Below are positions 18,041-35,073 of a stretch of DNA of 64,000 bases, one piece after another. The translations under genes and the position numbers were made by a program. Source of the stretch: Mycobacterium sp. Root265 (lineage in GTDB: Bacteria > Actinomycetota > Actinomycetes > Mycobacteriales > Mycobacteriaceae); NCBI RefSeq assembly GCF_001428895.1, contig NZ_LMJA01000031.1, positions 62,001-126,000 of the forward strand. Reading direction: 5' to 3'. The notes under the pieces were generated by a model. The model was not told where the DNA came from and did no database searches. It worked only from the letters and a program-made list of their open reading frames with translations. Numbering within the stretch: position 1 is the first letter of the stretch; the number at the start of each line of letters is the position of its first letter.

Positions 18041-19026
18041 CGTGTGTTGCCCTTGGGAGTGGCTGGGGTGGTCTCGACCAGGGCGGTCCCGTCCGCTTCA
18101 CTGTCGAGTTTCCGCAGAATCAGTCCCTCCCGCAATGCCCAGGGACAGATCTGTACCGTTTCGACACCCAACGCTCGCATGCTCGCCTCAGCTACCAATG
18201 CGCCCGCCACGATCTGTGGCGCCCGTTCGGCACTCACCCCTTCCAGCTCTGCTCTGTCGGCCGTAGTCATCCTAGAGATGAACGCGATCAGCTGCCGCAG
18301 ACCGGCCGCGGTCAGCGTCCGCTTCACCCGCGGCCCGGCACCCGAGGGCGCCGCGCCGGTGAGCCGGGCCAGCGAACGGAACGTCTTGGACGTGGCGACC
18401 GCCAGATCCGGTGTGCCCGCGGCCTGCATCACCGCACCGGCCTCGGACAACTCGGTGGACAGCCAGTCCCGCAGCATCGCCACCCGGCGGCGACCCGGCG
18501 GATCCTCGGACAACCACTCCCTGGTCATCCGGCCGGCACCGAGCGGCAGCGACATCGCGACCTCCGGCTCCTCGTCGACGCCGCTGGAAAGCTCCAGCGA
18601 ACCGCCACCGATATCGATGTTGATGATGCGTCCCGCACTCCAGCCGTACCAGCGGCGCACCGCCAGGAAGGTGAGCCGGGATTCGTCGACCCCGCTGAGC
18701 ACCCGCAGCGCGACGCCGGTTTCGGATTTCACCCGGGCCAGTACCGCCTCGGAGTTCTTGGCATCGCGCACCGCGGAGGTCGCGAAGGCCATCATCTCCG
18801 CGCACCCCGAACTGCTGGCGATCTTCGCGAATTCGTCGACCGTCTCGACCAGGGCGTCGGAGCCCTTGCGGGTCAGCTTTCCGCTCGAGTCGATGGCCTC
18901 GGCGAGGCGCAGCGCGGCCTTGGTGGAACTCATCGGGGTCGGGTGGCCGCCCCGGCGCGCATCGACAACCAACAAATGCACCGTATTGCTGCCCACATCC
19001 AGCACGCCCAATCGCACGCGACCCAC
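18037..19026 (-). CDS. Ppx/GppA-family exopolyphosphatase
   Basis: A 329-residue member of the ASKHA-fold Ppx/GppA family, matching Rv0496 (PPX1). The N-terminal phosphate loop is [12 protein letters not shown] and the second is [12 protein letters not shown]. Related mycobacterial enzymes hydrolyse short-chain polyphosphate and influence stringent signalling; a polyphosphate kinase of the PPK2 type lies 30 kb away in the same window. The GTG at 19026 is only five bases from the divergent gene's proposed GTG, so one of the two starts may be annotated too far upstream. Confidence 0.9.
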
Positions 19027-19030
19027 GTTA

Positions 19031-19840
19031 GTGGGTTTACCGTTGACAACTGTGGGGACATCACATGTCGGCGGTATCGGTGGCGAGGTCGAATTGGACT
19101 TCCCCAGGGAATGGGTGGAGTTCTATGACCCCGAGGATCCCAAGCATCTGATCAAGGCCGATATGACCTGGCTGTTGTCCAGATGGACCTGCGTGTTCGG
19201 CACCCCCGCCTGCCAGGGCACCGTCGAGGGCCGCCCCGATGACGGGTGCTGCTCGCACGGTGCGTTCCTCTCCGACGACGATGATCGGGCCCTGCTCGAC
19301 GACGCGGTGAAGACGCTGACCGACGAGGACTGGCAGTTCCGGTCCAAAGGTCTGGGGCGCAAGGGCTATCTGGAACAGGACGAGTACGACGGCAAGCCCA
19401 ATCTGCGCACCCGCAAGTACAAGGGCGCCTGCATCTTCCAGAACCGGCCCGGTTTCCCCGGTGGCATCGGCTGCGCGTTGCACTCCAAGGCGCTCAAGCT
19501 CGGGGTCGAGCCGCTGACCATGAAACCCGAGGTCTGCTGGCAGCTGCCGGTGCGCCGCACCCAGGACTGGGTGACCCGCCCGGACGGTTCCGATGTGCTG
19601 CAGACCGTCATCACCGAGTACGACCGGCGCGGCTGGGGCGAAGGCGGCCTGGACCTGCACTGGTACTGCACCGGCGACCCCGCCGCGCACGTGGGTGAAC
19701 GACCGGTCTGGGAGTCCTACCGGCCCGAGCTGATCGCCCTGCTCGGGGACAAGGCCTACGCCGAGCTCGCCGCCATGTGTAAGCGCCGCGGCCAACTCGG
19801 TCTGATCGCCGTGCACCCGGCCACCCGCGCCGCCCAGTAG
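19031..19840 (+). CDS. Conserved actinobacterial Cys-rich protein, Rv0495c-like
   Basis: About 269 residues from the GTG at 19031; an internal GTG at 19052 is an alternative start. The protein is soluble and rich in charged residues, and has a spaced Cys/His pattern: [44 protein letters not shown] and LHWYCTG. This would suit binding of a metal or Fe-S cluster. It matches the position of Rv0495c, a conserved protein without an assigned reaction. The frame stays open far upstream, but only antisense to the preceding genes. Confidence 0.82.
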
Positions 19841-20049
19841 GGCACACCACCCGGAGCCCACAGCCCCCGAGCTTCGCTGTCGGCGATTTTAGCTACCAGC
19901 GTTAGCTTTGCTATTTCCGGTTGAGTTAATACTTTTCGGTGGTCAGCGTCACACGCCCAGCTGTTGTGCACATAACTCTGCGCCGCTAAAGTCCGTAGCT
20001 ATCGCAGGGCGTTCACCAGGGGTTCTGCACACCGAGACAGGTGCACGTC
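19841..20049 (+). promoter_or_regulatory. Promoter region of the polysaccharide island
   Basis: This 209-base stretch is clearly more AT-rich than its surroundings. It contains a possible promoter, TTGCTA (19908-19913), a 16-base spacer and TACTTT (19930-19935), which would give a leader of about 108 bases for the sugar transferase. TTAGCT occurs twice just before it. No other gene is visible. Confidence 0.4.
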
Positions 20050-21612
20050 ATGACATCGATCGACCTGAGCAAGCCCTCGAGCGCCGGATTAACGCAGCTC
20101 AAAGCCGTTGACGACGCTCTCGCCGGGGGCACCGGCCGACGCAATACCGCATCACAGCGTTCCGCGGCGTCCCCCCGTCAGCGCCGCCGCAGGAAAACGA
20201 CCCAGATGATCATTTTTAGCGATGTAATCATGATTTGCTGTGTCGTCATTTTCAGTCACGTGGTGATGTTCGGCGGCACCGGCACCCAGCTCTACCTCGG
20301 CGCCACCGGCGCGGGGAACATCAGCTACGCCTGGGTATCGGTGGCCCTGGCGCTGGTCTGGTTGGGGTTCCTGGCACTGGGCAGCTGGACGCCCCGGGTG
20401 GCCGGACGCGGTGCCGACGAGTACGTGGTGCTCGGTTTGGTGACGCTGCAAGTCTTCGGCCTGATCGCCGCGGTGGCACTGCTGCTCTCGATCGACATCT
20501 CGGCCCGTTACCTCGGTATCGCACTGCCGCTCGGACTGGTCGGGCTGATGGTGAACCGGTGGCTGTGGCGCCGGGTTTCGGCGCGCCGGCGCCGTCAGGG
20601 CCTGGACCAGGCGCCGCTGCTGATCGTCGGTTCCGAGCCTGCGGCCCGCGATATCGCCACCGAGTTCGCGAAGGATCCGTGGGCGGGATACCGCGTCGCG
20701 GGCGTCTGCACCCCGGCCGGGCCCACCACGGCCAAGGCATCCATGACCATCAACGGCGACATCGTGCCGATCGTGGGCATGGATCAGGCCATCCTGGACG
20801 CCGTCGCACGCACCGGCGCGGAGACCGTCGCACTGGCGGCCACCGATCACCTGCGTCCCGTGGAAATCCGGCGGCTGATGTGGGAACTGGACGAGGTCGG
20901 CGTCGACCTGATGATCGCTCCCGGCCTCATCGATGTCGCCAACCAGCGCCTGGTCAGCAACCCGGTCGCCGGGATGGCCATGCTGGAGGTCACCAAACCC
21001 CAGTACAGCCGCGCCAACTCACTGCTCAAGCGCACCTTCGACATCGCGTTCGCGACCACCGCGCTGCTGCTGGCCTCCCCGGTGCTCATTGCCGCCGCGA
21101 TCGCCGTACGACGTTCCGGGCCCGGCCCGATCTTCTACCGGTCCGAGCGCATCGGCATCGACGGCACCGAGTTCCAGATGACGAAGTTCCGCAGCATGGT
21201 CACCGGTGCCGACGCCATGATGGCCGACCTGATCGCCAGGAACGGCGGCGACGCCCTGTTCTTCAAGCTCAAGGATGACCCGCGCATCACCACCGTCGGA
21301 AAGTTCTTGCGCAAGTACAGCATCGACGAGCTGCCCCAGTTCTTCGACGTGCTGCGCGGTGACATGTCGGTGGTGGGCCCGCGCCCGCAGGTCCGTCGCG
21401 AGGTGGATTCCTACGACGACCTGATGGGACGCCGGCTGACCGTGAAGCCCGGCCTCACCGGCCTGTGGCAGGTCAGCGGCCGGTCGGACCTGGAGGCCGC
21501 AGACGCGTTCCGGCTGGATCTGTCCTACGTCGAGAACTGGTCCCTCATGGGGGATGTGGTGATCATCGCCAAGACGGTCAGCACCGTGCTCAGGGGCAGC
21601 GGAGCGTACTGA
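20050..21612 (+). CDS. Polyprenyl-phosphate sugar-1-phosphate transferase (initiating glycosyltransferase)
   Basis: A 520-residue WcaJ/WbaP/CpsE-type enzyme that transfers a sugar-1-phosphate to undecaprenyl or decaprenyl phosphate, starting repeat-unit assembly at the membrane. It has four membrane helices (about 55-165), a CoA-binding-like Rossmann domain (about 185-300) and the C-terminal catalytic domain. That domain begins with KRTFDIAFATTALLLASPV and contains MTKFRSM, DELPQFFDVLRGDMSVVGPRP and KPGLTGLWQVSGRS. ATG 20050 was preferred to an in-frame GTG three codons upstream. It opens the exopolysaccharide island and ends 23 bases inside the convergent ligase gene. Confidence 0.93.
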   Translation: MTSIDLSKPSSAGLTQLKAVDDALAGGTGRRNTASQRSAASPRQRRRRKTTQMIIFSDVIMICCVVIFSHVVMFGGTGTQLYLGATGAGNISYAWVSVALALVWLGFLALGSWTPRVAGRGADEYVVLGLVTLQVFGLIAAVALLLSIDISARYLGIALPLGLVGLMVNRWLWRRVSARRRRQGLDQAPLLIVGSEPAARDIATEFAKDPWAGYRVAGVCTPAGPTTAKASMTINGDIVPIVGMDQAILDAVARTGAETVALAATDHLRPVEIRRLMWELDEVGVDLMIAPGLIDVANQRLVSNPVAGMAMLEVTKPQYSRANSLLKRTFDIAFATTALLLASPVLIAAAIAVRRSGPGPIFYRSERIGIDGTEFQMTKFRSMVTGADAMMADLIARNGGDALFFKLKDDPRITTVGKFLRKYSIDELPQFFDVLRGDMSVVGPRPQVRREVDSYDDLMGRRLTVKPGLTGLWQVSGRSDLEAADAFRLDLSYVENWSLMGDVVIIAKTVSTVLRGSGAY

Positions 21613-22519
21613 GGATCTCCGTGCTCCAGGCGTCCGGTTCGAACCCGTGGGTTCGGATCAGCGCCAACGCAATTCGCTCCATACCGAATCCGACGCAGGC
21701 GCTGTGCGCCACCGCCCCATCGGTGGTGCGCAGGCCGAAGGTCGCGCCGAAGTGGTCGCGGTGGCAGTTCGCCGACACCACTGCGGTGCCCTCGTCGAGG
21801 TCGCCGTACAGCCGCACCGTCAGTTCGGTCTTGAGTTCGTCGTCGCGCTGATTGGCCGCCAGCATCTTGCCTGCGCGACCGAAGAACGGATCGTTCGCCG
21901 CGACCGGGCTGGCCTCCAGACCCAGTGAAGTCAGCACGTCGAGACCATGGCCCACCCACGAATCCCGGTGCTGCTGAGCTTGTTCGGGGCTGCCGACCGC
22001 GACGTACTCATGCATCCGGAAGGCCTGCATGCGCGCCGGGTCGATGGAAGGTTCGTGCCGGAAGCAGTAGCCGTACACGTCGAGCAGCACACCGTCGGCT
22101 TCGATGACCTCCGGCAGCGTCGCATAGCTCGGATGGCAGGCGGCCGACACCAGCATCGTCCCGGCGGGATGCAGGTGCCCGTCCCACGGCCGGCCCGCCT
22201 CCCGATCGGCGAGCAGTGCCCGATGGTCCCGGTTGTCCCCGGAGAAGGTCGACACCGCGCCGGTCAGATTGGGGAACGACGCGATGTAGTCGGTCTTCTC
22301 GAACGCCTCCCGCGGATACAGCGGCGGAAACCGCCGCACCGCGGGGCGATCACCGTGGACGGCGCGCCCCTTGGCCCGCACCACCCGGTCGATGCCGTCG
22401 ATGACCTCTTCGAACACCCCGCTGCGGCCGTACAGGCCGTCGATGCCCAGCGGAATGAGCAGGCCCGCTGCGACGAGATCGTCCCTGAACTGGAGGCGCG
22501 CGGCCTCAAGCGTGGTCAT
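21590..22519 (-). CDS. Amino acid:[carrier protein] ligase (class II seryl-tRNA synthetase-like)
   Basis: A 309-residue homologue of the amino acid:[carrier protein] ligases described in Bradyrhizobium. These are catalytic-core-only relatives of atypical seryl-tRNA synthetases that activate a small amino acid with ATP and load it on a carrier protein's phosphopantetheine. Family blocks are present: RFPPLYPREAFEKTDYIASF, SAACHPSY, YCFRHEPSIDPARMQAFRMHE, AANDPFFGRAG, SANCHRDHFG and HSACVGFGMERIAL. Cys128, Glu171 and Cys275 align with the zinc ligands. The tRNA-binding arm is absent. ATG 22519 has a good GAGG site upstream; the in-frame extension to 22570 is less likely. Its natural partner is the divergent carrier-protein gene at 22874. 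The loaded amino acid cannot be read from sequence; Gly or Ala are the known substrates of relatives. Confidence 0.9.
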   Translation of the reverse strand: MTTLEAARLQFRDDLVAAGLLIPLGIDGLYGRSGVFEEVIDGIDRVVRAKGRAVHGDRPAVRRFPPLYPREAFEKTDYIASFPNLTGAVSTFSGDNRDHRALLADREAGRPWDGHLHPAGTMLVSAACHPSYATLPEVIEADGVLLDVYGYCFRHEPSIDPARMQAFRMHEYVAVGSPEQAQQHRDSWVGHGLDVLTSLGLEASPVAANDPFFGRAGKMLAANQRDDELKTELTVRLYGDLDEGTAVVSANCHRDHFGATFGLRTTDGAVAHSACVGFGMERIALALIRTHGFEPDAWSTEILSTLRCP

Positions 22520-22873
22520 CGCCTCATCTTGCCATCGCGCGGCGCACCCTACCCACGGATGGCGGCTCACGGCAGACGCAAGTGGATGCAGATTTGCTAA
22601 AAATGCACCCTTGCGTCAAATATTTGCCGTCCCTCCGGATTGTGACGCATCACTCACCTCGACAACCGCGACCGGCAACACTATTCGCGAGCCGTAGATA
22701 ACTGCATGTCAATGCCCTATATAAGGCGTCTCGGTCCACTTCGATCACGCACTGGCAAACGTCGAGCACCCCTGGAGTCCCACGTCCACCGTTGTTTTCG
22801 TATTCCGCCAGAAAAGTTGCCATGTTAGTGTCAGCGAACAAGTTTTGAGAATGCTAGGACGGGGACAGCCACC
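22520..22873. promoter_or_regulatory. 354-base divergent control region between the ligase and carrier-protein genes
   Basis: This is the only gene-free stretch over 300 bases in the window and is locally AT-rich. A stem-loop is formed by GACGCAAG (22575-22582) and CTTGCGTC (22610-22617), perfect 8-base arms on either side of an AT-rich centre, upstream of the ligase start. Near the other end TAGGAC (22855-22860) preceded by TG is a weak minus-10 candidate, and AGGACGGGGAC is a ribosome binding site for the carrier-protein ATG. I see no ORF with coding character. Confidence 0.5.
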
Positions 22874-23119
22874 ATGCAGGACCGCATTCGCGCAGTACTG
22901 GCCAGCCAAGGACGGATGCCGTCGGACCCGCAGGCCATCGCCGCCGACGCCGACCTGTACGAACTCGGTCTGACCTCGCATGCGTCGGTGAACGTGATGC
23001 TCGCGCTCGAAGACGAGTTCGACATCGAATTCCCGGACGACGCCCTCAACAAGACGACCTTCGCGACGATCGCCAGCATCGAGCGCGCGGTCGGCGAACT
23101 CACCGCCGTCGCGGCCTGA
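22874..23119 (+). CDS. Acyl/aminoacyl carrier protein
   Basis: An 81-residue phosphopantetheine-carrier protein. The attachment site is Ser35 in LYELGLTSHASVNVMLALED, where the usual DSL is replaced by TSH. That variant motif, followed by EDEFDIEFPDDALN, is characteristic of the stand-alone carriers that accompany amino acid:[carrier protein] ligases or polysaccharide/exosortase-type clusters, not fatty-acid or polyketide synthesis. It lies 14 bases upstream of the tandem hydrolase gene, in the same operon as the flippase and glycosyltransferases, and opposite the ligase that probably loads it. Confidence 0.92.
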   Translation: MQDRIRAVLASQGRMPSDPQAIAADADLYELGLTSHASVNVMLALEDEFDIEFPDDALNKTTFATIASIERAVGELTAVAA

Positions 23120-23133
23120 CACCCAGGCCCGCC

Positions 23134-24894
23134 GTGAGCACCCCGAGCGAAACCCCGACATTCTTCGGCCCCAGCGACTCTCCGCTGTTCGGCGTGCTGC
23201 ACCTGCCCGCCGACAACCGTGTGCGCGGCGGGGTGCTGATCTGTGGGTCACTCGGCAAAGAAGGCATGGACAGCATCCGGTTCCAGCGGATCCTCGCCGC
23301 TGACCTCGCCGAAACCGGCTACGCGGTACTGCGTTTCGACTATTACGGCACCGGCGACTCGGCGTTCGGGCATCACCGTGACGACGCCGTGGCGCTGTGG
23401 TCGCGCAGCATCCGGCACGCCGCCGACCATCTCTCCGGAATGGGCGTGCCCTCGGTGTCGGCCATCGCCCTGCGCGCCGGCGGCCTGCTGGTCGATCACG
23501 CCATCGCCGCGGGGGCGCCCATCGGCCGCGTCGGTTATCTGGACCCACCCGCAACCGGGCGTCGCTACCTGCGTGAGCAGGCCGCGTTGTACCGGTTCAC
23601 CGTCGGGCCGGAGGCTTTCGCGCACAGCGCCACCGACACCGACACCGTCTCGATCATCGGTGCGCGGCTCAGCGAGTCCGCCGCCAAGTCCTTCACAGCG
23701 CTCAAACTCACCGGCCCGGTGGCCACCGGGGCCGACCGACTCTTCGTCGTGCGCCCGGGCGATACCCACCGATTCGCCGCGACCGACCGCACCCGTGTCA
23801 TCGCCGCACCCGGGCTGGCGGAGTTCGCACAGACTGCCGATGTCGTCGTTCCCATGCCGATGACGGCGCTCGGCGACATCGTGGCCTGGTTCGGCACCTC
23901 AGTCGACTCCGCACCCGTCGCGGTCGAACCCCGCCCGGTCACCTCCGCGCTGATGCCGGTCAGCACCGACAGCGGACCCGTGAAGGTGCTCGAGACCATC
24001 GAAACATTCGGCCCCAAGGGCCTGTTCGGCATCCGGACCCGCCCGGTGGGCAGCACCCCCGGCCAGGGCCGCGTCGTGCTGTTCTTCGCCACCTCCAACG
24101 ATCCGCATGTCGGGCCCGCCCGTGGCTGGGTGGAACTGGGCAGGCAGATCGCGGTAGGCGGTGCTCAGGCGTTCCGTTGGGACGGCACCGGTCTGGGCAA
24201 CTCACCGGAGATCGTGCGCGATCAGTGGCAACCCATCTACGACGCCCGGCGCATCGCCGACGGGCACGAAGCGGGCCGTCACGCCGCTCAGGATCCCCGC
24301 CAGCTCAGCGTCGTCGGGATCTGCTCGGGATCCTGGTATGCCGCCCACACCGCGCGCGAGTTGGCCGCGGGCGCCGCCCTGCTGGTCAATGCCGGCAGCT
24401 GGAGCTGGCCGTCCGGCGCCTGGGCCTGGCAATGGAACGTGCGCCGCGACATCCTCGCGACCGCGGGCGATGACGGCCCGCAACTCGGCGCTGCGCCGGA
24501 TCCGGCCCAGCCGTGGCCACTGCGCAAGCGAATCATCGAGTCGCTCAAACCGTTGCGGGACCAGTTGAAGACCCTGCTGCGCGCCCGGCTGCCCCGGCCT
24601 CTGCTCAAGCTGCTCGGCCGTGCCGGGCTGGCCCAGGTGCCCGAAGTCCTGCTCGGACCGCTGCTGCGTAACGACACCCGCACGGTGCTGATGTTGTGCC
24701 CGTTCGATATCGAACATTTCGCCGGGTTCGACGGATTCGCCACGGTGGCGCGCCTGCAGCGGGCCGGCTTGCCGCTGCGCACCGTCGAACTGGACGGCGG
24801 GGACCATGCCGCCTACCACCAGGCCGTCCTCGACGGTATCCGGGACGAGTTGCTCGGCCCGCCCTGCAAGCAGAGTTTGGCGCTGGGCTCATGA
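23134..24894 (+). CDS. Tandem alpha/beta-hydrolase protein, one domain with a Cys nucleophile
   Basis: A 586-residue protein made of two alpha/beta-hydrolase domains, about 8-270 and 290-580. In the first, the RFDYYGTGDS loop (67-76) is intact, but the nucleophile elbow reads ALRAG with Arg114 where Ser is expected, and no catalytic His is evident. In the second, the elbow is GICSG with Cys397. His558 in DGGDHAAY and a plausible acid such as Asp525 complete a Cys-His-Asp triad. The Arg and Cys elbows recall the paired hydrolases of proteobacterial exosortase-linked polysaccharide clusters, here fused. A Cys nucleophile next to a carrier protein suggests thioester-to-ester or amide transfer, or editing. 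GTG 23134 is the start; the flippase overlaps by four bases. Confidence 0.85.
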   Translation: MSTPSETPTFFGPSDSPLFGVLHLPADNRVRGGVLICGSLGKEGMDSIRFQRILAADLAETGYAVLRFDYYGTGDSAFGHHRDDAVALWSRSIRHAADHLSGMGVPSVSAIALRAGGLLVDHAIAAGAPIGRVGYLDPPATGRRYLREQAALYRFTVGPEAFAHSATDTDTVSIIGARLSESAAKSFTALKLTGPVATGADRLFVVRPGDTHRFAATDRTRVIAAPGLAEFAQTADVVVPMPMTALGDIVAWFGTSVDSAPVAVEPRPVTSALMPVSTDSGPVKVLETIETFGPKGLFGIRTRPVGSTPGQGRVVLFFATSNDPHVGPARGWVELGRQIAVGGAQAFRWDGTGLGNSPEIVRDQWQPIYDARRIADGHEAGRHAAQDPRQLSVVGICSGSWYAAHTARELAAGAALLVNAGSWSWPSGAWAWQWNVRRDILATAGDDGPQLGAAPDPAQPWPLRKRIIESLKPLRDQLKTLLRARLPRPLLKLLGRAGLAQVPEVLLGPLLRNDTRTVLMLCPFDIEHFAGFDGFATVARLQRAGLPLRTVELDGGDHAAYHQAVLDGIRDELLGPPCKQSLALGS

Positions 24895-26249
24895 CCGCGG
24901 ATCACAACGGCGCGAAATCCGAACTGCGCCGCAGCTTCTCCACCCGTGTGCTGGCGGCCGCGGTCGGCATGGTCGCCACCTTCCTGCTGACCGTCATCGT
25001 GGTCCGGTTCCTGAACACCCGGGACACGGCCGCCTTCTTCGGTGTCCTCGCGGCCCTGCCCATCGGATCCATCGTGGGCCGGATGGGGCTGGGCAACAAC
25101 GTCGTCCGGTTGATCCCATCCGAACCGGACCGACAGCTCAAACGGATCATCGCGGGAACCCACCTGCGGGCCACCTTCATGATGACCCTGCCCACCGCGC
25201 CGATCATCGCGCTGTGCGCGACCGTCGGGCTGATCGGTCAGGAAAACTTCGTTCCCGCACTGCTGCTCACCACCCTGATGGTGCTCATCGAGTCCATCCG
25301 GATGATGCTCAGCGACATCTTCTCGGCGGTCGGCCGGGTGAGCGCCTCGGTGGCCACCACACACTACGTGCGCAGCGTCATCGTGCTGCCGGTCGTCGCC
25401 ATCGTCGCCTTCACGGTCGCGCAACCGACGCTGGTCGAGATGCTGATCGCCTACTCGGCGGTCTCGGGTACCCAGGTGCTGTTCGCGCTGATCGCCGGGC
25501 GCTCCGATATCGCGCTACGGCACGCCCCCGGGCTTGCGGCGCTGCGGGCCGCCATCGCCTCCGGATCGCGGCTGTTCACCCTGGAACTCACCGCGTTCCT
25601 CATCGTGTCCGGCACCATCTGGCTGGCCAACGCGACGCTCATCCCGCAGGACGCCAAGCTCTACGCCGTCGCCACCACCATCGCCATCCAGGTCACCATC
25701 CTGGAGAGCCTCGCCGCGACCGCGGTGCTGCCCCCGGCGGCCCGGATGTGGGTGGCCGGCCGGAAACCCGAAGTCATCCGGATGCTGTCCAACCTGTCCA
25801 CCGTCAACACCCTCATCACCGTGTCGGTCGTGCTGGTGCTGGCGTTCTTCGGCGGATTCTTCCTCGAGCTCGCCTACGGACCGGCGCTGCGCGAAGCCAA
25901 CATCCTGTTGGTCATCCTTGCCGTGGGCGGCATTCCGCAGGCCGCGCTGAGCGTGAACACCTCGCTGCTGATCATCGCCGGTCACCTCGACGCGGTCTGC
26001 CGAGTTTCGCTGATCGTGCTTGTTCTCGTCGTTCCCGGCGCGATCGCGGCGGCCGTGTTCGGTGGTGCCCTGGCGCTGGCGATCGTCGCGGCGTGCGGTC
26101 TGGCCTCGCTCTACATCGGTTTGTGGCTCACCGCCCGGCACATCTTCGGCGAATCGCCACGACCGCACTGGAACGTGGTCCGGGCCGGGCGTGAGCTGGT
26201 CAGCGAACGCGGCGATGTCGCCGAGGTACCCGCGGTCGCGGCGGTGTGA
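24891..26249 (+). CDS. Polysaccharide flippase (Wzx/MATE-like MOP superfamily)
   Basis: A 452-residue integral membrane protein with about 12 hydrophobic segments starting at residue 14. The N-terminal pattern SFSTRVLAAAVGMVATFLLTVIVVRFL is typical of oligosaccharide flippases of the MOP superfamily. It would move the lipid-linked repeat unit across the cytoplasmic membrane. The ATG at 24891 overlaps the hydrolase stop by four bases (ATGA), which sets the start; the frame is open upstream only as a shadow. The C-terminal 40 residues are a charged cytoplasmic tail. Confidence 0.9.
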   Translation: MTADHNGAKSELRRSFSTRVLAAAVGMVATFLLTVIVVRFLNTRDTAAFFGVLAALPIGSIVGRMGLGNNVVRLIPSEPDRQLKRIIAGTHLRATFMMTLPTAPIIALCATVGLIGQENFVPALLLTTLMVLIESIRMMLSDIFSAVGRVSASVATTHYVRSVIVLPVVAIVAFTVAQPTLVEMLIAYSAVSGTQVLFALIAGRSDIALRHAPGLAALRAAIASGSRLFTLELTAFLIVSGTIWLANATLIPQDAKLYAVATTIAIQVTILESLAATAVLPPAARMWVAGRKPEVIRMLSNLSTVNTLITVSVVLVLAFFGGFFLELAYGPALREANILLVILAVGGIPQAALSVNTSLLIIAGHLDAVCRVSLIVLVLVVPGAIAAAVFGGALALAIVAACGLASLYIGLWLTARHIFGESPRPHWNVVRAGRELVSERGDVAEVPAVAAV

Positions 26250-26253
26250 CCCG

Positions 26254-27612
26254 ATGCCCACGTTGAGCACGCTCGCGCCACTGCGCGCGTCGCTGTCCCC
26301 GCGACCAGCCCTGTGGTGGCTGTCCCCGGTCGCCATCGCGCTGATCATCGGTGCCGCCTCGATCATCCCGACCGCGATGGTCAGCGACGAGAAGTTCCGC
26401 ACCCTGTGGCGGACCCCGAAGTCGATCACCACCGAGACCCTGCTGTTGTTCGGCTGCGGTGCAATCGCTCTGGCCTTCGGTGCGCTGGTGGCATTTGCGG
26501 TGTACGCCGCGCCACGGCCGCAGGCGATGCGGTGGCCCGGCCTGGACGAGGGCACCCTGGGACTGCTGCGCACGGCCTCCACCGTGCTGACCGCGCTGAC
26601 CGTCACCGGATACCTCGGCTTCTGCTTGCTGATCCTGCGCTCCGGACTGTCCTTCGGGCAGTTGTTCGCGGGCTCCCAGGAGGACGGCTACCTGCCGGCC
26701 AAGGACGCGATCGGCACCATCCCCGGCGTGACGACGATGACCCAGCTCGGCGTCGCCGCCGTGGTGATCGCGACAACGGTTGCGGTGCAGCAGTTCTCCT
26801 GGGCGGAAGTGGCCAAGGTCGCGATCGTCATCGGGCTGGCCGTTCCGCGTGCCTACATCTACGCCGAGCGCCTGGCCATCCTCGAGCTCGTCATCCCGGT
26901 CAGCGTCATCGTCGCTGCCCACCTGTCGATCGGGCGCCGCCGGCAACGCACCGCCGCCCGCCTGCTCCCGCTGGCGGGTCTGGCGCTGGTGGTCGTGGTG
27001 TTCAGCGCCTTCGAGTACAACCGGTCCTGGACGTACTACCGCGCCCATGGGCAGAGCTCATTCGTCGAGTTCGCACTCAGCCGGCTGGCCGGGTATTACG
27101 TGACCGCGCTCAACAACGGGCAGCTGATCCTGGAGCATCTGAATTGGCCGGGGCGTTGGCCGTTCGACACCATGGACGGCTTCTGGAGCGCTCCCGGCAT
27201 CGAACAGTTCGGTCTCTACGAGCGGCTCAGCGGCTACAGCCCGCCGTACGCCCGCGGGAACATCTCCCCGTATTTCGACACCCTGGCCCAGTTCGGCAAT
27301 CCCGAATTCAACAATCAGAGCGGCTATGTCGGACCCTTCATCGATTACGGCTGGTTCGGCGGGCTCATCTTCATGTTCGCCATCGGCCTGATCGCCGGCC
27401 TGCTCTACCGCCAGTTCTGCCACGGCCGGCCCCTGGGCCTGCTGGTGTACCCGGTGTTCTTCGTCGGCCTCGTCGAGATGCCGCGCTACGTCTACTGGGG
27501 TCAGGGCCGGGCCACCTACGCCTGGCTGGCCATCGCAGTGGTGCTGGTGCTGGTCTACCGCCGTCGCAACCGGGTCAGCCTGGTCCGCCGGCAGACGGCC
27601 GCTGATGCGTAA
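26254..27612 (+). CDS. O-antigen polymerase-like (Wzy-type) membrane protein
   Basis: A 452-residue protein with about 10 membrane helices and a large external loop (about residues 255-365) rich in Tyr, Trp and Asn. This is the layout of Wzy polymerases, which join lipid-linked repeat units on the outer side of the membrane. Sequence motifs of Wzy are weak in general, so the call rests on topology plus position between the flippase and the glycosyltransferases. The ATG at 26254 is five bases after the flippase stop region; an open extension upstream overlaps the flippase and was rejected. Confidence 0.78.
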   Translation: MPTLSTLAPLRASLSPRPALWWLSPVAIALIIGAASIIPTAMVSDEKFRTLWRTPKSITTETLLLFGCGAIALAFGALVAFAVYAAPRPQAMRWPGLDEGTLGLLRTASTVLTALTVTGYLGFCLLILRSGLSFGQLFAGSQEDGYLPAKDAIGTIPGVTTMTQLGVAAVVIATTVAVQQFSWAEVAKVAIVIGLAVPRAYIYAERLAILELVIPVSVIVAAHLSIGRRRQRTAARLLPLAGLALVVVVFSAFEYNRSWTYYRAHGQSSFVEFALSRLAGYYVTALNNGQLILEHLNWPGRWPFDTMDGFWSAPGIEQFGLYERLSGYSPPYARGNISPYFDTLAQFGNPEFNNQSGYVGPFIDYGWFGGLIFMFAIGLIAGLLYRQFCHGRPLGLLVYPVFFVGLVEMPRYVYWGQGRATYAWLAIAVVLVLVYRRRNRVSLVRRQTAADA

Positions 27613-28699
27613 AGCGATGCGCGCACTTGTGGTCTCGGTGCTGGCCACCACCATGGTCGCCTGCCAGACCACCCCGTCGAGCAGCGAGACCACCGGCGAC
27701 AGCACCGCCGGCCTGCAGGGCATGCTCAACGCCCTCGCGCCCGGCGACACCCTGACCCTGGAGCCCAGGGTCTACGAGCACAGCGGGGTGCTCAAGGTGC
27801 TGGTGCCCGATGTGCGCATCGACGGCAACGGCGCGACCCTGCAGGCCACCCACGACGAGACCTCCGCCGTCCAGATCCTGGCCGACGGAGTGCAATTGAG
27901 CAATATCCGGCTGACCGCACCGCCGGAGGGGCCACGCTACATGTCGCCGGACGAGCACAAGCTGGTGATCGGCGCGGACAACGTCGCGGTGTCACACGTC
28001 AACATCGACGGCTCCGCGGGCGCGGGGGTCTTCGTCGATGGCGCACAAAATTTTTCGATTCGCGATCTGACCGTCCACGGCACCCGGGCCGATGGGCTGC
28101 ACATGACCAACGGTGCCGGCAACGGAGTCGTCGAGGGTGTGCGCACCGACCAGACCGGCGATGACGGTGTGGCCGTGGTGTCCTACGGCGCCGACGCGGC
28201 CAGCTGCCACGACATCACGGTCAGCGATGTGCACGTCGGCAGCACCCGCTGGGGCCGCGGGATGACCGTCGTCGGCGGCACGAACATCGCCATGCGCGGC
28301 TTCACGGTCGCCGACACCGATTCCGCCGGTGTGTACGTCGCCACCGAAGGCGATCCGTACTTCACCCGGACCGTGGAGAACGTCAGCATCTCCGACGGGA
28401 CCGTCACCGGCGCCAACCGCAACGCGGGCATCGTGCAGGGCGCCGTGCTGGTCGCGGTCGAGAATCCCGGCACCGAGGTGCGCAACGTGTCGATCTCGGA
28501 CATCCGTATCGCCTCGACACCACCGTCGGCCGAACGCAATGTCGCGATCTACACCAAGGCCGGAACGCTGCAGGGCGTCCAGATCAGCGGCATCTCGCTC
28601 GACAACAGCACTCTCCCAGCATTTTTCACCAACGCCGATGCCGGATCCTTCGCAGTGACGGGTTGGACGGCCGGCGGTAACCCGATTGCGGTGAGTTGA
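27605..28699 (+). CDS. Exported lipoprotein with right-handed beta-helix (pectate-lyase-like) fold
   Basis: A 364-residue protein. Residues 1-20 form a lipoprotein signal peptide ending in MVAC with Cys20 as the likely lipidated residue. The rest shows the repeating pattern of parallel beta-helix proteins (runs such as NVAVSHVNIDGSAGAGVFVDG, NGVVEGVRTDQTGDDGVAVVS and NIAMRGFTVADTDSAGVYV). Such folds are found in polysaccharide lyases, hydrolases and epimerases. In a Wzx/Wzy locus it could trim, modify or hold the polymer at the cell surface. It overlaps the polymerase gene by eight bases. Catalytic residues cannot be named from sequence alone. Confidence 0.82.
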   Translation: MRKAMRALVVSVLATTMVACQTTPSSSETTGDSTAGLQGMLNALAPGDTLTLEPRVYEHSGVLKVLVPDVRIDGNGATLQATHDETSAVQILADGVQLSNIRLTAPPEGPRYMSPDEHKLVIGADNVAVSHVNIDGSAGAGVFVDGAQNFSIRDLTVHGTRADGLHMTNGAGNGVVEGVRTDQTGDDGVAVVSYGADAASCHDITVSDVHVGSTRWGRGMTVVGGTNIAMRGFTVADTDSAGVYVATEGDPYFTRTVENVSISDGTVTGANRNAGIVQGAVLVAVENPGTEVRNVSISDIRIASTPPSAERNVAIYTKAGTLQGVQISGISLDNSTLPAFFTNADAGSFAVTGWTAGGNPIAVS

Positions 28700-28700
28700 C

Positions 28701-29768
28701 ATGCCCAACACAAAGATCATCCACGTGACGGAGTCCTTCGCCAGCGGCACGGCCTCGGCGATCGGCGATTTCGTGCGTAACTATCCGGAGGCAGAACACC
28801 ATTTGGTGTACACGCCACGCCCGGAAGCCCCGGTGGACCCGCGCGAACTGGAGCAATTCGTCTCGGCCACCGAAATGCCCGCCGGCACCCTGGCCCGGGT
28901 GCGTTTCACCCGCCGCTACCTGCAGCAGGCCCGAAACGGGTTCGCCGGCAACGTCATCGCACATGCGCATTCCAGTAAGGCCGGCGCATACGTCCGCGCC
29001 GCGGTACGGACCTCCCGGCGGCTGCCGCTGGTCTACACCCCGCACTGCTACGCGTTCGAACGGCTCGATCTGAGCTGGCCGGCACGGCAGGTCTTCCGCG
29101 CCCTGGAATGGATCCTGTCGTTCAACACGTCGGCCTACGGAGCCTGCTCGCCACGCGAGGCGCAGCTGTCCCGCTGGCCGGGCCGGACCACCCGGGTGCA
29201 GAGCGTGCCCAACGTGAACCCGCCCGGGCTCTCGGGGCACGGTCGTGAGGAATCCGGCCGTCCGCTGCGCGTGGTGGGTAACGGCAGGCTCGGGCCGCAA
29301 AAGGATCCCGCGTTCTTCGCCGACGCGTTCGCCGCCGCGGCGGCGGAGAATCCCGATATCGAGGCGCTGTGGGTGGGCGGCGGCGACGAGGAGTATGAGA
29401 ACAAGCTGCGCGCGTGTGGCGTCGAGGTGACGGGGTGGCTGCCCCGGACCGAGGCGCTCGCCGCGATGGCCTCGGCCGATCTCTACCTGCACACCGCGAG
29501 CTGGGAGGGCTTCCCGATCTCGATCATGGAGGCGTCCGGGATGGGCCTGCCGGTGGTCTCCCGGCGCCGGCCCTACCTGCTGGGCGTCGATCTGCCCGTG
29601 ATCATCGACGAGCCCGCCGATTTCGCCTCGGCGGTGGCCCAGCTGCGCGAGGGCGACGCCCTGGATAAACTGCGTCGGCGCACGCAGGAGGCGCTGGCCG
29701 AGAACACCGACCGCGACCAGCAGGTGGCGCTGCGTGAACTGTACGGCCCGCTGATCGGAGCACGGTGA
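28701..29768 (+). CDS. Glycosyltransferase, GT4-like
   Basis: A 355-residue GT-B glycosyltransferase. The N-terminal half has the nucleotide-sugar family start IIHVTESFASGTASAIGDF and the HAHSSKAGAYVRAA loop. The C-terminal half has VGNGRLGPQKDPAFF, VTGWLPR and the donor-binding EGFPISIMEASGMGLPVVS block with its two Glu residues. It would add a sugar to the lipid-linked repeat unit in the cytoplasm. Start is one base after the lipoprotein stop, and its TGA overlaps the next ATG. Confidence 0.9.
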   Translation: MPNTKIIHVTESFASGTASAIGDFVRNYPEAEHHLVYTPRPEAPVDPRELEQFVSATEMPAGTLARVRFTRRYLQQARNGFAGNVIAHAHSSKAGAYVRAAVRTSRRLPLVYTPHCYAFERLDLSWPARQVFRALEWILSFNTSAYGACSPREAQLSRWPGRTTRVQSVPNVNPPGLSGHGREESGRPLRVVGNGRLGPQKDPAFFADAFAAAAAENPDIEALWVGGGDEEYENKLRACGVEVTGWLPRTEALAAMASADLYLHTASWEGFPISIMEASGMGLPVVSRRRPYLLGVDLPVIIDEPADFASAVAQLREGDALDKLRRRTQEALAENTDRDQQVALRELYGPLIGAR

Positions 29769-30811
29769 TGTCGCAGGTGCACGTGAACGGCAAGTGGCTG
29801 GCGCAGCGGCTCACCGGCACCCAGCGCTACGCCACCGAGATCGTGCGCGCCATCCTGGCCACCGACACCGTCGATCTGGTGATCCACGTCCCGGCCGGCG
29901 TGGACGTCCCGGCCTATCTGCATCACCCACGCGCGGAGATCCGGCAGGCACGCGTCAAAGGCCAACTGTTCGAACAGGTTTACCTGCCGGCGGTGACCGC
30001 GGGCAAACTTCTGCTCAACTTCGCCGGCCCGGCACCGCTACTCAAGCGGCGCCAGCTGGTCACCATGCACGACGCCACCCCGTTCCGCTATCCGCAGACC
30101 TTCACCAAGTCCTTCGTGCGGTCCTACCTGGTGGTGTACTACCTGCTGGGCCGGATCGCCGAGCAGCTGGTGACGGTGTCGCACTTCAGCGCGCGCGAGC
30201 TCGACGACGTCCTGGGCATCCCGGTCGACCGCTTCCTCGTCGCCGGTTGCGCGGCGGACGCCCTGACCGGGCTGGAACCCGTGCGCCCCGAGCTCGACGG
30301 TGTCGACGACCCGTTCTATCTGATGGTCGGAACGCTTGCGGTGCACAAGAATCTGGTCGCTCCCGTGCAGGCCGTCGTCGAGTCCGGGCGCAAGGTCATC
30401 GTCGTCGGTGCGTCGGGCAACAGCCAAGTGTTCTCGGCCGCATCGGATCTCACCGGGAACGCGGAGATCGCCGGTCATCTGTCCGACGCCGAACTCGCCT
30501 GGCTGTACCGCAACGCGGACGCACTCATCTTCCCGTCCAAGTACGAGGGTTTCGGATTACCGCCGCTGGAGGCGCAGTCGCTGGGTTGCCCGGTGGTGAC
30601 CTCCCGGGCTGCCTCGCTGCCCGAGATCGCCGGGGACGCAGCGTTGTTCTTCGACCCCGATGACGCCGGTTCGCTGCTGGCCGAGCTGGACCGGTTGGAC
30701 TCCGAGGGCGGGCTCGCCGATGACCTACGACACCGCGGCCTGGTGAACGCGAAGCGTTACTCCTGGGATGAGTCGGCGCGCACCATACTGGCCTCGCTGC
30801 AGCTGGCCTGA
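29768..30811 (+). CDS. Glycosyltransferase, GT4-like (second of the island)
   Basis: A 347-residue GT-B enzyme. It begins with VNGKWLAQRLTGTQRYATEI, a form common in rhamnosyl/mannosyl-type GT4 enzymes. The donor site is represented by VGTLAVHKN, LSDAELAWLYRNADALIFPS and YEGFGLPPLEAQSLGCPVV. ATG 29768 shares a base with the preceding stop (TGATG), preferred over the GTG just before it. It is the last gene of the plus-strand operon and ends before a 9-base hairpin. Confidence 0.9.
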   Translation: MSQVHVNGKWLAQRLTGTQRYATEIVRAILATDTVDLVIHVPAGVDVPAYLHHPRAEIRQARVKGQLFEQVYLPAVTAGKLLLNFAGPAPLLKRRQLVTMHDATPFRYPQTFTKSFVRSYLVVYYLLGRIAEQLVTVSHFSARELDDVLGIPVDRFLVAGCAADALTGLEPVRPELDGVDDPFYLMVGTLAVHKNLVAPVQAVVESGRKVIVVGASGNSQVFSAASDLTGNAEIAGHLSDAELAWLYRNADALIFPSKYEGFGLPPLEAQSLGCPVVTSRAASLPEIAGDAALFFDPDDAGSLLAELDRLDSEGGLADDLRHRGLVNAKRYSWDESARTILASLQLA

Positions 30812-30851: not shown

Positions 30852-32111
30852 TCAGCCGAAGATTCCGCCCCGGGTGCAGGCCACCGCGACGGGGGCATCG
30901 CCCAGGTTGGTGGCGAGCGCAACCTCGGGGACGGTGTCATGCCCGATGCGGGCCACCACCAGGATCTGATCCGCCCGCTCGGCGACGTCGATGACCTGCG
31001 ACGAACCGGTCAGCGAGCCGCCGTCGACGATGACGCTGCCCTGTCCCTCGACGGAGATCGCCGCGTTCAGCGCGGTGCGCACCGCGGCGGAGTCCTTGCC
31101 GGCGAGTTCGGCGACACCGACCGATTTCGCGGCACCGTGCTCGCTGGCGGCGCCGTGCAGCAGGCGGGCCACCTCGGTGCTGCCGGAGCCGTCGGACGCG
31201 CCGACCACCAGGATCACACCGGTGCGCGGTTGTGGTAGCTGACTGTAGAGCGCGCGCGCCAATTCCAGTGAGCGCCGGGACTTTCCGATCGCGACCTCCG
31301 GTGCGATGACCGGCAGCGGGTCGACCTCGCGCTGCAGCTGCGCCGGCGAGGACACCACCCCGGAGCGGGCCCGCCAGGCCAGCGCCGCACCGAGCGCGAG
31401 CAGACCGCCGAGTAGTCCGCCACCGATGCCGCCGAGCAGTTGGGTGCTTGAGCCGGTGCTGGATTCCGAGACAGTCGATTCGATGGTCTGAATGGCCGGG
31501 GCGCGGTCGATCTGAGATTCCAGCGACACCCGCTTACCGTCGAGATCCCTTGTGCGGTCGTTGAACACGGCCTCGTCAAAGGGAACTCCGTCCCGGTCGG
31601 CGTCGGTGAGCGCCTGCTGACGCAGTCGCACCACGGCGCCGTTGACCGCATCGAGCGCGGACTGCACGCGCACCTTGTTGAGGTCATAGACATGCCCGCC
31701 GTACACCTTCAGGGCGGCGTCGACCGCCCGCTGGGCGGATTCGGCGTCGGGCTCGGTGGCCGAGATGGCGATGATCGAGGCCTGCCCCTGCTGGGTGGCT
31801 GTCAGCGTCGGCGATTCGTCGGTGCCGAGCTCGTCTGCGACGGCATCCTGGAAACCGGTCGAACTCAGATAGGCGACCTCGCCGGACAGATATCCCTGCA
31901 GGGTGTCCGCGGGCATCGGACTGCTGGTGATGATCTGGTTGGGATCGATCGGCGGGTCGATGCGCACCTGGGTGGTGGCGGTGGCGGCGTTCGCGCTCAC
32001 CGACAGCGCAATCAGTGTGCCCACGATCGCCCCCAGGACGATGCCTGCGACGGTGGCCGGCCAAATCGGTGTCAGCAATCCGTAGACAGTGGCCCGCAAC
32101 CGCTTCTGCAT
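30852..32111 (-). CDS. Wzz-type polysaccharide copolymerase with degenerate BY-kinase-like domain
   Basis: A 419-residue protein. A first membrane helix (about 14-37) is followed by an extracytoplasmic Wzz domain (about 40-220) with the coiled region seen in chain-length regulators. A second helix (about 228-250) leads to a cytoplasmic domain resembling bacterial tyrosine kinases and the Wzz/CpsD fusion proteins. The P-loop reads GASDGSGSTE, lacking the Walker lysine, so ATP binding is doubtful. A Tyr-rich autophosphorylation tail is absent. It probably controls chain length or export of the polymer made by the convergent operon. A promoter and a GGGGAG ribosome binding site precede it. Confidence 0.85.
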   Translation of the reverse strand: MQKRLRATVYGLLTPIWPATVAGIVLGAIVGTLIALSVSANAATATTQVRIDPPIDPNQIITSSPMPADTLQGYLSGEVAYLSSTGFQDAVADELGTDESPTLTATQQGQASIIAISATEPDAESAQRAVDAALKVYGGHVYDLNKVRVQSALDAVNGAVVRLRQQALTDADRDGVPFDEAVFNDRTRDLDGKRVSLESQIDRAPAIQTIESTVSESSTGSSTQLLGGIGGGLLGGLLALGAALAWRARSGVVSSPAQLQREVDPLPVIAPEVAIGKSRRSLELARALYSQLPQPRTGVILVVGASDGSGSTEVARLLHGAASEHGAAKSVGVAELAGKDSAAVRTALNAAISVEGQGSVIVDGGSLTGSSQVIDVAERADQILVVARIGHDTVPEVALATNLGDAPVAVACTRGGIFG

Positions 32112-32312: not shown

Positions 32313-32999
32313 TCAGCCCTCGAGCTTGTAGCCCAAGCCGCGCACCGTCACCAGGTGCACGGGGCTGGCCGGATCGGCCTCGATCTTCGAGCGCAGCCGC
32401 TTGACGTGCACATCGAGGGTCTTGGTGTCCCCGACATAGTCGGCGCCCCATACCCGGTCGATCAGCTGGCCGCGGGTCAGCACCCGGCCGCTGTTGCGCA
32501 TCAGGTACTCCAGCAGGTCGAACTCCTTGAGCGGCAGGGTGATCGGTTCACCGTTGACGCTCACCACATGACGCTCCACGTCCATCCGCACCGGGCCGGC
32601 CTCCAGCACACCGTCCCCGATGCCGACATCCTCGCTGTCGGTGCCGCGCCGCAGCACCGCCCGGATCCGGGCGATCAGCTCACGCGCCGAATACGGCTTG
32701 GTGACATAGTCGTCGGCGCCGAGTTCCAGGCCGACCACCTTGTCGATCTCACTGTCGCGGGCGGTGACCATGATGACCGGCACGCTGGACCGCGAGCGCA
32801 ACTGCTTGCACACATCGGTACCGCTCATCCCGGGCAACATCAGGTCCAGCAGCACGATGTCGGCGCCTGCCCGCTCGAACTCCGCGAGCGCGGACGGGCC
32901 GTCACCGACGACGGTGGCCTCGAACCCCTCCTTGCGCAACAGGAATGCCAGCGGGTCGGCCAGAGATTCCTCGTCCTCAACGATCAGCACACTCGTCAT
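32313..32999 (-). CDS. regX3: Phosphate-responsive response regulator RegX3
   Basis: A 228-residue OmpR/PhoB-family regulator. The receiver domain carries the phosphoacceptor Asp52 in VLLDLMLPGMSG, and the winged-helix domain has the KEFDLLEYLMRNSGRVLTR and LDVHVKRLRSKIE segments. With SenX3 it controls the phosphate-starvation response in mycobacteria. It lies 18 bases after senX3; the gap is too short to hold the MIRU repeats found between these genes in M. tuberculosis. Confidence 0.97.
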   Translation of the reverse strand: MTSVLIVEDEESLADPLAFLLRKEGFEATVVGDGPSALAEFERAGADIVLLDLMLPGMSGTDVCKQLRSRSSVPVIMVTARDSEIDKVVGLELGADDYVTKPYSARELIARIRAVLRRGTDSEDVGIGDGVLEAGPVRMDVERHVVSVNGEPITLPLKEFDLLEYLMRNSGRVLTRGQLIDRVWGADYVGDTKTLDVHVKRLRSKIEADPASPVHLVTVRGLGYKLEG

Positions 33000-33017
33000 G
33001 GGTGGGTTGGTCCTCTC

Positions 33018-34190
33018 TTAATCATCATCAACCGATCGGTCGTCATGAATGGCCGGAATGGCAAGGGTGAACGTCGAGCCGGTGCCCGGCTGACTCCATA
33101 ACCGGATGGATCCGTTGTGGTTGGCGGCAACGTGTTTGACGATGGCCAGGCCGAGCCCGGTGCCGCCGGTGGCCCGCGAGCGGGCCTTGTCGACCCGGAA
33201 GAATCGCTCGAACACCCGCTCCTGATCGGCCCGCGCGATGCCGATACCGCGGTCGGTCACGGCGATCTCGATGTCGTTGCCGCGCCGACGCCGGCTGATC
33301 GACACCGCGGAGCCGTCCGGGGAGTAGGCGATGGCATTGGAGACCAGGTTCGCAATGGCGGTCGCGAGCAGCCGCTCATCGCCGAGCACCCGGTAGCCGG
33401 TCGGGGCGTCGGTGGTGATGGCGATATCGGCGTTGTCGGCGGCCACCTTGTAGCGCGAGAGGGCCTCGGCAACCAAGGTGTCGACGTCCACACTGTCCAG
33501 GTTGGGCAGCGGTTCGGCGCCCTGCAGCCGGGACAGCTCGATCAGCTCGCCCACCATGCTGGCCAGCCGGTTCGATTCGACGACCATCTTCTCGCCGAAG
33601 CGGCGAACGTTGTCGGGGTCGTCGGTGGAGGCGAGCAACGCCTCGGCCAGCAGGCCCATCGCACCGACCGGTGTCTTGAGTTCGTGGCTGACATTGGCGA
33701 CGAAATCGCGCCGGGTCGCCTCCATCCGCGCCTGCTCGGACTGATCGCCGACGAACACCACCGCGAACTGGTGGTCCTCCTCGACCAGCAGCCGCACGTG
33801 GCCGCGCACCGACAGGCCCGAACGGCCCGACTTCTGCTTCTTGCGCGGCGACAGGTCGATCTCGACGTCGGCTCCGGTGGACAGGCAGCGCTGCACCGCC
33901 TGCCAGGCGCGATCATCGAGCAGCCGGTCACGCACCAGACCCAGCTCGGCGGCCTGATCATTCATGTAGACGACGTCGCGGAAGGCGTCGACCACCACGA
34001 TCCCCATCGGGGACATCGCCGCGATGTGGCTGAGCATCTGGGAGATGGTGATACCGCGGCCCTGTTCGGCCAGTTGGCGGGCCCGGCGTTCGGCGAGTCG
34101 CGAGGACACGACCATCCCCGCAGCCACGCCGCCCGCCAGCGCGACCAACGCCAACGCTGCCGCCAACAGCAACGCGGAACCGACACTCAC
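33018..34190 (-). CDS. senX3: Sensor histidine kinase SenX3
   Basis: A 390-residue kinase partner of RegX3. An N-terminal hydrophobic region (about 5-30) anchors it, followed by a PAS-like domain (about 45-155). The phosphoacceptor is His169 in [15 protein letters not shown]; the HATPase domain has [20 protein letters not shown] and [11 protein letters not shown] boxes. It responds to phosphate supply together with the Pst/PhoU system. Its promoter probably lies in the 119 bases after gpm1, where hexamer repeats resembling PhoB-type boxes occur. Confidence 0.97.
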
Positions 34191-34282
34191 GCGAAAAGCG
34201 TACGCATCGGGTGAACGTCATCCCAGCAGCGTGCGGCCAAACCGGGACAAGTCACACGAACAAAGACAGGAGTTCGGTCACC

Positions 34283-34313
34283 GTTTACTCGCGTTCACCC
34301 GCCGTTTGTTTAC
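34283..34313 (-). promoter_or_regulatory. PhoB-type hexamer repeats upstream of senX3-regX3
   Basis: On the plus strand GTTTAC (34283-34288), GTTCAC (34293-34298) and GTTTAC (34308-34313) recur, the first two with a ten-base period. The last overlaps the gpm1 stop codon. They lie 93 to 123 bases upstream of the senX3 start, consistent with autoregulation by RegX3, which is inference. Confidence 0.4.
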
Positions 34314-35059
34314 TTGGCGCCCTGCGCAGCGACCGCCGCGGCTCCGGCGGCGGCGGCCTCCGGGTCCAGGTAACGGCCACCGGGCACCACCGGCTTGAGG
34401 TTGTCGTCCAGCTCGTAGAGCAGCGGGATGCCGGTCGGGATGTTGAGGCTGACGATGTCGTCGTCGGACATGCCGTCCAGGTACTTGACCAGGGCACGCA
34501 GCGAGTTGCCGTGCGCGGCGATGAGCACCGTCTTACCGGCCTTGAGGTCGGGAACGATGGTCTGCTCGAAGTACGGCACGAAGCGGGCCACCACATCGGC
34601 GAGGCATTCGGTCAGCGGTCCGCCGTCGATATCGGCGTAGCGCGGGTCGGCGTCCTGGCTGAACTCGCTGCCCTTCTCGATGGGCGGCGGCGGGGTGTCA
34701 TAGCTGCGGCGCCAGGCCATGAACTGCTCGTCACCGTATTTCTCCTTGGTGGCGGCCTTGTCCAGACCCTGCAGCGCGCCGTAGTGACGCTCGTTGAGGC
34801 GCCAGTCCCGGTGCACCGGAATCCACAGCCGGTCGGCGGCCTCCAGCGCCAGGTTGGCAGTGACGATCGCCCGGCGCAGCAGCGAGGTGTACAGCACGTC
34901 GGGCAGCACGCCCTGATCGGCGAGCAGTTCGCCGCCGCGTATCGCCTGGGCCCGACCCTTCTCGGTGAGGTCGACGTCGACCCAACCGGTGAACAGGTTC
35001 TTCTCGTTCCACGTGCTCTCGCCGTGACGCAGCAGGATCAGATTCGCCATGGCTGGCAT
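34310..35059 (-). CDS. gpmA: 2,3-bisphosphoglycerate-dependent phosphoglycerate mutase
   Basis: Glycolytic and gluconeogenic interconversion of 3- and 2-phosphoglycerate via a phosphohistidine. The 249-residue protein has the [20 protein letters not shown] signature with the catalytic His, the [10 protein letters not shown] loop and AHGNSLRAL with the second His. The ATG three codons downstream (35050) is an equally good start. It precedes senX3-regX3, as gpm1 does in other mycobacteria, and the three may be partly co-transcribed. Confidence 0.96.
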
Positions 35060-35073
35060 TCTGTCACGACAGC

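Follow-up and report, generated by a model that had tools for sequence, protein, structure and literature searches.

A candidate minimal aminoacyl-transfer module, with a Cys hydrolase as possible transferase, in a polysaccharide locus of Mycobacterium sp. Root265

We analysed a stretch of 64,000 nucleotides from Mycobacterium sp. Root265 (contig NZ_LMJA01000031.1, positions 62,001 to 126,000; hereafter the window), in which the genes for an amino acid:[carrier protein] ligase, an aminoacyl carrier protein and a tandem alpha/beta-hydrolase all sit inside a polysaccharide locus. Whether these genes constitute a minimal module that transfers an aminoacyl group to a surface polysaccharide, with the Cys hydrolase as transferase, is in our judgement evenly balanced. 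All three genes were found at the positions given by a first-pass annotation, made from the sequence alone, which had described them as embedded in a polysaccharide locus. One refinement is that the ligase gene runs divergently from those of the carrier and the hydrolase, a 354-base region (22520..22873) separating the ligase and carrier starts.

The ligase gene (21590..22519, minus strand) encodes 309 amino acids from the ATG at 22519, or 326 from an upstream GTG at 22570. The protein scored 417.8 bits against NF005479 (amino acid--[acyl-carrier-protein] ligase; curated cut-off 357), and a phmmer search of the PDB returned the Bradyrhizobium ligase 4h2w_A as its best solved relative (1.1e-64). 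With the ATG start, Cys128, Glu171 and Cys275 fell exactly where the first-pass annotation had placed them, and they aligned with Cys131, Glu176 and Cys279 in the crystal structure of the Bradyrhizobium enzyme (20-residue tag subtracted), residues that we take to be its zinc ligands. In the 326-residue reading, positions 32-320 aligned with 42-327 of the 346-residue ligase chain, while only 307-507 of the 527-residue type-2 serine--transfer RNA (tRNA) ligase aligned, to positions 133-321. As had been claimed, the class II synthetase core is, judging by these alignments, without a tRNA-binding arm. Family membership and the preserved zinc ligands make it likely that the enzyme loads an amino acid as a thioester on the adjacent carrier.

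The carrier gene (22874..23119, plus strand) encodes 81 amino acids, with the phosphopantetheine attachment residue Ser35 located in the expected GLTSHAS site. The protein scored 99.7 bits against NF005480 (aminoacyl carrier; cut-off 72), and its top PDB matches were 4h2w_C and 2jq4, the latter, the Agrobacterium carrier Atu2571, being its best solved relative (1.6e-17).

The third gene (23134..24894, plus strand) encodes the 586-residue tandem alpha/beta-hydrolase, the proposed Cys transacylase. Two domains were found, as previously described: an N domain (about 5-260), in which Arg114 occupies the elbow, and a C domain (about 284-583) with the triad Cys397, Asp525 and His558, the only GxCxG elbow lying at 395-399. 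Among aligned hydrolases longer than 450 amino acids, Cys397 was present in 67 of 67, His558 in 97% and Asp525 in 94%, and all three were invariant in a 30-row alignment; the VIA-align rows mainly covered the N domain. That domain, in which Arg replaces the nucleophile, probably binds the carrier or the sugar. The protein is probably cytosolic, since it has no hydrophobic segments.

To place these genes among their relatives, we scanned 84,980 species, each represented by one genome. The scan gave at least 468 confirmed relatives, of which the best 80 loci were kept, a set that over-represents Rhodococcus and Williamsia. Locus genes were counted by six-frame profile search (gene calls otherwise came from an in-house caller), and families were named from Pfam and NCBIfam runs on example proteins. 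The best 80 loci contained the carrier in 78 cases, an acyl-CoA dehydrogenase in 72, DUF1839 in 57, the hydrolase in 56, a GH2-like protein in 52 and a phosphopantetheinyl transferase in 35; in all 78 carrier-bearing loci the carrier lay at most 1.4 kilobases (kb) from the ligase. Passages of PMC10318531 describe a papain-like fold for DUF1839, a fold that hints at a possible part in glycan processing at the cell wall. As controls we used twenty 20-kb stretches from seven ligase-positive genomes of the genus, at round coordinates picked by hand. They gave no match to the carrier, DUF1839, GH2, phosphopantetheinyl transferase, priming transferase, GT4, GT2, Wzx or Wzz profiles, and one weak match each to the dehydrogenase (77 bits) and the hydrolase (42 bits). 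One related contig (L051) is labelled Dehalococcoidia; the label is probably misassigned, since its ligase is nearly identical to that of a Dietzia locus (L053; end branch 0.0083).

Within the genus, 248 genomes were surveyed, and 13 of them carried the ligase over the cut-off. The hydrolase, counted at an expectation value (E) below 1e-60, was present in 13 of these 13 and in 4 of the other 235 genomes (Fisher p 1.5e-18). At E 0.001, 27 genomes gave a match, of which the 17 below 1e-60 were counted and 10 weak ones (best 1.8e-6) excluded; copies may have been missed because at most five candidates per genome were scored. A distant ligase-like family (90-131 bits, below the cut-off) occurred in G023, G088, G171 and G244, none of which had a hydrolase match. 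An exclusive pairing of ligase and hydrolase was rejected, because four of the 248 genomes carry the hydrolase without the ligase. In the three readable ligase-less loci (L119-L121) the hydrolase is accompanied by a carrier, a phosphopantetheinyl transferase and an adenosine monophosphate (AMP)-binding protein, the last conserved (85% identical) and named from a Pfam match of the L119 protein, to which the L120 and L121 proteins were tied by blastp; GNAT-like and flavin mononucleotide-binding proteins are also nearby. The fourth (L092) is an uninformative 3.9-kb contig.

DUF1839 was detected in 7 of the 248 genomes, all seven ligase-positive, and with these as positive control it was not found genome-wide in the other six ligase-positive genomes, namely the window genome, G089, G131, G146, G157 and G224. 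The same six genomes, hereafter the reduced ones, yielded no orthologue of the locus dehydrogenase (best at most 71.0 bits, compared with at least 553.8 in three positive genomes; 61.6 in the window genome as against 555.3 in G035), part of this search covering matches at E of 1e-15 or better, and none of the GH2-like protein (at most 85.5 bits, the best match in the window genome, compared with at least 1131.7 in two positive genomes). The genome-wide searches rejected the possibility that the dehydrogenase, DUF1839 or GH2 gene is located elsewhere in the window genome. The window is not a member of the common form of the locus, in which the dehydrogenase, DUF1839 and the GH2-like protein are all present. 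In all six reduced loci of the genus (the window and L105-L109), the ligase, carrier and hydrolase genes are accompanied by priming transferase and GT4 genes. The expected co-conservation of the three genes with polysaccharide genes was thus observed within the genus, and was weaker across phyla.

A likeness of the window hydrolase to another group of proteins emerged from family profiles: it resembles exosortase-A-associated hydrolases 2 and 1 fused into one protein. Both TIGR03100 (hydrolase 1) and TIGR03101 (hydrolase 2) matched 30 of 30 members of the hydrolase alignment at E 0.001. The Cys, Asp and His corresponding to Cys397, Asp525 and His558 were present in all seven aligned exosortase hydrolases 1, and the elbow Arg corresponding to Arg114 in all seven aligned exosortase hydrolases 2, so that the window protein carries the residues of both. 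A carrier adjoins the hydrolases in seven of eight exosortase-A loci, and an AMP-forming ligase (TIGR03098) exceeded the cut-off in both of the loci scanned for it (2 of 8). Our literature search found no paper on the function of these hydrolases, and the words 'hydrolase', 'acyl carrier' and 'ligase' are absent from the text of the 2006 exosortase paper.

The genes around the three are consistent with a polysaccharide locus. An undecaprenyl-phosphate priming glycosylphosphotransferase (20041..21612, plus strand; TIGR03025, 400.8 bits, cut-off 295.55) overlaps the ligase gene at their 3' ends. The hydrolase gene is followed on the plus strand by a Wzx-type flippase candidate (24891..26249; 11 hydrophobic segments), whose predicted fold (model predicted local distance difference test 67.4) had MurJ, MATE and WzxE as its top Foldseek matches, and by a weak Wzy-type polymerase candidate (26254..27612; seven hydrophobic segments; PF14296, 13.3 bits, cut-off 26.6). 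Then come a beta-helix protein with a lipoprotein-like N terminus (27605..28699; PF13229, 34.2 bits, cut-off 25.9), possibly a lyase or epimerase, and two GT4 glycosyltransferases (28701..29768, PF13692, 62.7 bits; 29765..30811, PF00534, 74.3 bits). A Wzz-like chain-length candidate with two hydrophobic segments lies on the minus strand (30852..32111) and gave no match in a Pfam scan. Searching solved structures with profiles of the Wzx, Wzy and Wzz candidates yielded nothing useful. The 'Wzx/Wzy-type' assembly line of the first-pass annotation is therefore solid in its priming transferase and two GT4 enzymes and supported by fold for Wzx, while Wzy stays below the cut-off and the Wzz-like protein is without a Pfam match.

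The genes adjoining the locus (32313-36887) presumably correspond to regX3, senX3 and gpm1, with an mshA-like gene also beside the locus, as named from their translations. In a second species (G224), a separate hydrolase/ligase polysaccharide locus adjoins similar genes (L109, 328-3116); the shared regX3/senX3/gpm1-like neighbours suggest an insertion hot spot. The true extent of a called 520-residue frame at 18278-19840 is uncertain, since its relatives cover only about 250-260 residues.

Taking the genes and their context together, we propose the following sequence of steps. The class II ligase, as its family membership implies, would activate a small amino acid with adenosine triphosphate and attach it, through a thioester bond, to the phosphopantetheine of the neighbouring carrier. 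The hydrolase would take the aminoacyl group onto Cys397 of its C domain, as its conserved Cys-Asp-His triad suggests, and, given the gene context, would hand it on to a lipid-linked sugar unit, at a hydroxyl or an amino group, before Wzx flips the unit. In most of the best 80 loci, the dehydrogenase, DUF1839 and the GH2-like protein would modify and process the group; the window lineage has apparently lost all three, so that the unmodified amino acid would be transferred.

The hydrolase might instead act as a type II (housekeeping) thioesterase, clearing carriers that were mis-loaded, while another enzyme performs the transfer. Most of its structure matches are esterases, lipases or thioesterases, the C domain matching ABHD10 and the curacin thioesterase domain, and these agree with such a role. 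We nevertheless regard this as rather unlikely, in view of a Cys nucleophile kept without exception in the long aligned hydrolases, the second, nucleophile-free domain retained beside it, and the absence of DUF1839 from six ligase-positive genomes of the genus (out of 13), each of which keeps the hydrolase. Because DUF1839 is absent and the hydrolase kept, no other recognised transferase of the system is left in the window, and the Cys hydrolase is the sole recognised candidate. The loaded carrier could also feed a diffusible small molecule, the polysaccharide context being incidental: 46 of the 72 dehydrogenase-bearing relatives had no polysaccharide marker nearby with the profiles used here, an adenylation-carrier-thioesterase protein adjoins the ligase-less hydrolase locus L121, and the discovery of the ligases came with a proposal that they act in non-ribosomal peptide synthesis (as quoted in passages of PMC2922099). 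This we consider improbable, since the priming transferase and GT4 genes occurred in 6 of 6 reduced loci of the genus and in none of the 20 control stretches, and a Pfam scan of nine window proteins (20041-30811) detected no peptide-synthetase domain. It is very improbable that the three genes are a decaying remnant of a larger locus, with no present function. Three commonly associated genes are indeed gone genome-wide, but the reading frames and catalytic residues are intact, and ratios of nonsynonymous to synonymous substitution speak against decay: they were about 0.11 to 0.18 when the ligases and hydrolases of three reduced relatives (L105-L107) were compared, and about 0.125 for the window ligase relative to L011. 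Moreover, in a quick tree of 88 ligase rows the reduced state (11 rows) was spread over several branches, with seven changes, at least five of them forced by well-supported branches; single placements and a direction of loss rather than gain are tentative, given several long branches and the midpoint root.

Several observations weigh against the proposed module with the Cys hydrolase as transferase. The hydrolase was absent from the fetched stretch in 24 of the 80 related loci, some of them truncated, and in two reduced loci that keep the ligase and carrier (L015 and L058) neither hydrolase nor glycosyltransferase was found nearby. A polysaccharide marker (a priming transferase, GT4, Wzx or Wzz profile) accompanied only 26 of the 72 dehydrogenase-bearing loci, as compared with 8 of 10 of the reduced form (p 0.014), a weak link because the profiles were built from the same loci and favour actinobacteria, and because the rows are related. 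For the latter count L053 was merged with the near-identical L051, L106 and L107 were left out because they duplicate L017 and L016, and L011 because its contig ends 165 bases from the ligase. The best genus matches of the window hydrolase were those of the four ligase-less genomes (45-47% identical). The window hydrolase also fell below the cut-offs of TIGR03101 (57.6 as against 202.75 bits) and TIGR03100 (50.6 as against 168.45 bits), and its TIGR03100 match lies on the N domain (best stretch 10-77) and not on the C domain; in the relative L060 the same profile matched over 324-613 with 143.5 bits, likewise below the cut-off. The Wzy label, resting on a sub-cut-off Pfam match, and the Wzz label are weak. 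As for the earlier interpretation of the three genes, the module is indeed kept within the genus, while transfer by the hydrolase, a sugar as acceptor and the final product are what we infer.

The closest known systems are the amino acid:[carrier protein] ligases of Bradyrhizobium and Agrobacterium, reportedly described by Mocibob et al. in 2010 and 2013, which share with the window the ligase and carrier families and the zinc ligands. The window ligase stretch FGRAGKMLAANQRD is closer to that of the 4h2w chain than to that of 3mey, and 4h2w presumably carries the Agrobacterium-type carrier-binding helix. Passages of PMC10888616 list bll0958, the neighbouring locus number in Bradyrhizobium, as an acyl-CoA dehydrogenase; the window genome differs in its lack of a locus dehydrogenase orthologue. 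Aminoacylation of a cell-surface sugar has been in print since 2010, with another bond-forming enzyme: passages of PMC2922099 include a note added in proof proposing that the ligase's amino acid is ligated to a cell-surface sugar, and assign the formation of the amide to a conserved open reading frame, e.g. Atu2574. By an assignment made in this analysis, Atu2574 is a putative DUF1839 protein; the window genome is without DUF1839, and the Cys hydrolase would replace it. New here are the reduced form of the locus, the likeness to exosortase-A-associated hydrolases and the resulting candidate transferase. The purpose of these ligases has been open since their discovery and was still given as unknown in passages of a 2022 review (PMC9437257), and our literature search, which covered few subscription papers and others in part, found no experiment assigning their acceptor. 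With a natural locus that has only ligase, carrier and hydrolase, the question comes down to three soluble proteins, and the hydrolase, not DUF1839, is indicated as the core transferase.

The DltA and AlmE ligases belong to the AMP-binding class. The DltABCD (teichoic acid) and AlmEFG (lipid A) systems resemble the window in using a ligase, a carrier and then transfer to a surface polymer or lipid (passages of PMC12930378 and PMC3783018). They differ in the class of the ligase, that of the window being a relative of class II synthetases, and in that they use membrane or lysophospholipid-type acyltransferases, of which no family was detected in Pfam scans of the window locus. The exosortase-A loci, whose components are a TIGR03098 ligase, a carrier, a TIGR03099 decarboxylase and the TIGR03101 and TIGR03100 hydrolases, share with the window an adenylating ligase that lies next to a carrier, a hydrolase 2 with the Arg elbow and a hydrolase 1 with the Cys, Asp and His residues. 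There the scanned ligases are AMP-forming and the hydrolases are separate genes, whereas in the window the ligase is related to class II synthetases and both domains are in one protein. A tentative extension, towards which we lean less than away from it, is that the tandem hydrolase and the exosortase-A hydrolase 1/2 pair represent an unrecognised class of cytosolic Cys-dependent (amino)acyl-carrier:glycan transferases that use interchangeable ligases; the window genes, as its minimal aminoacylating form, would reveal the acceptor of amino acid:[carrier protein] ligases. If the window hydrolase is the core transferase, the similar hydrolase pair in exosortase-A loci would gain a function too.

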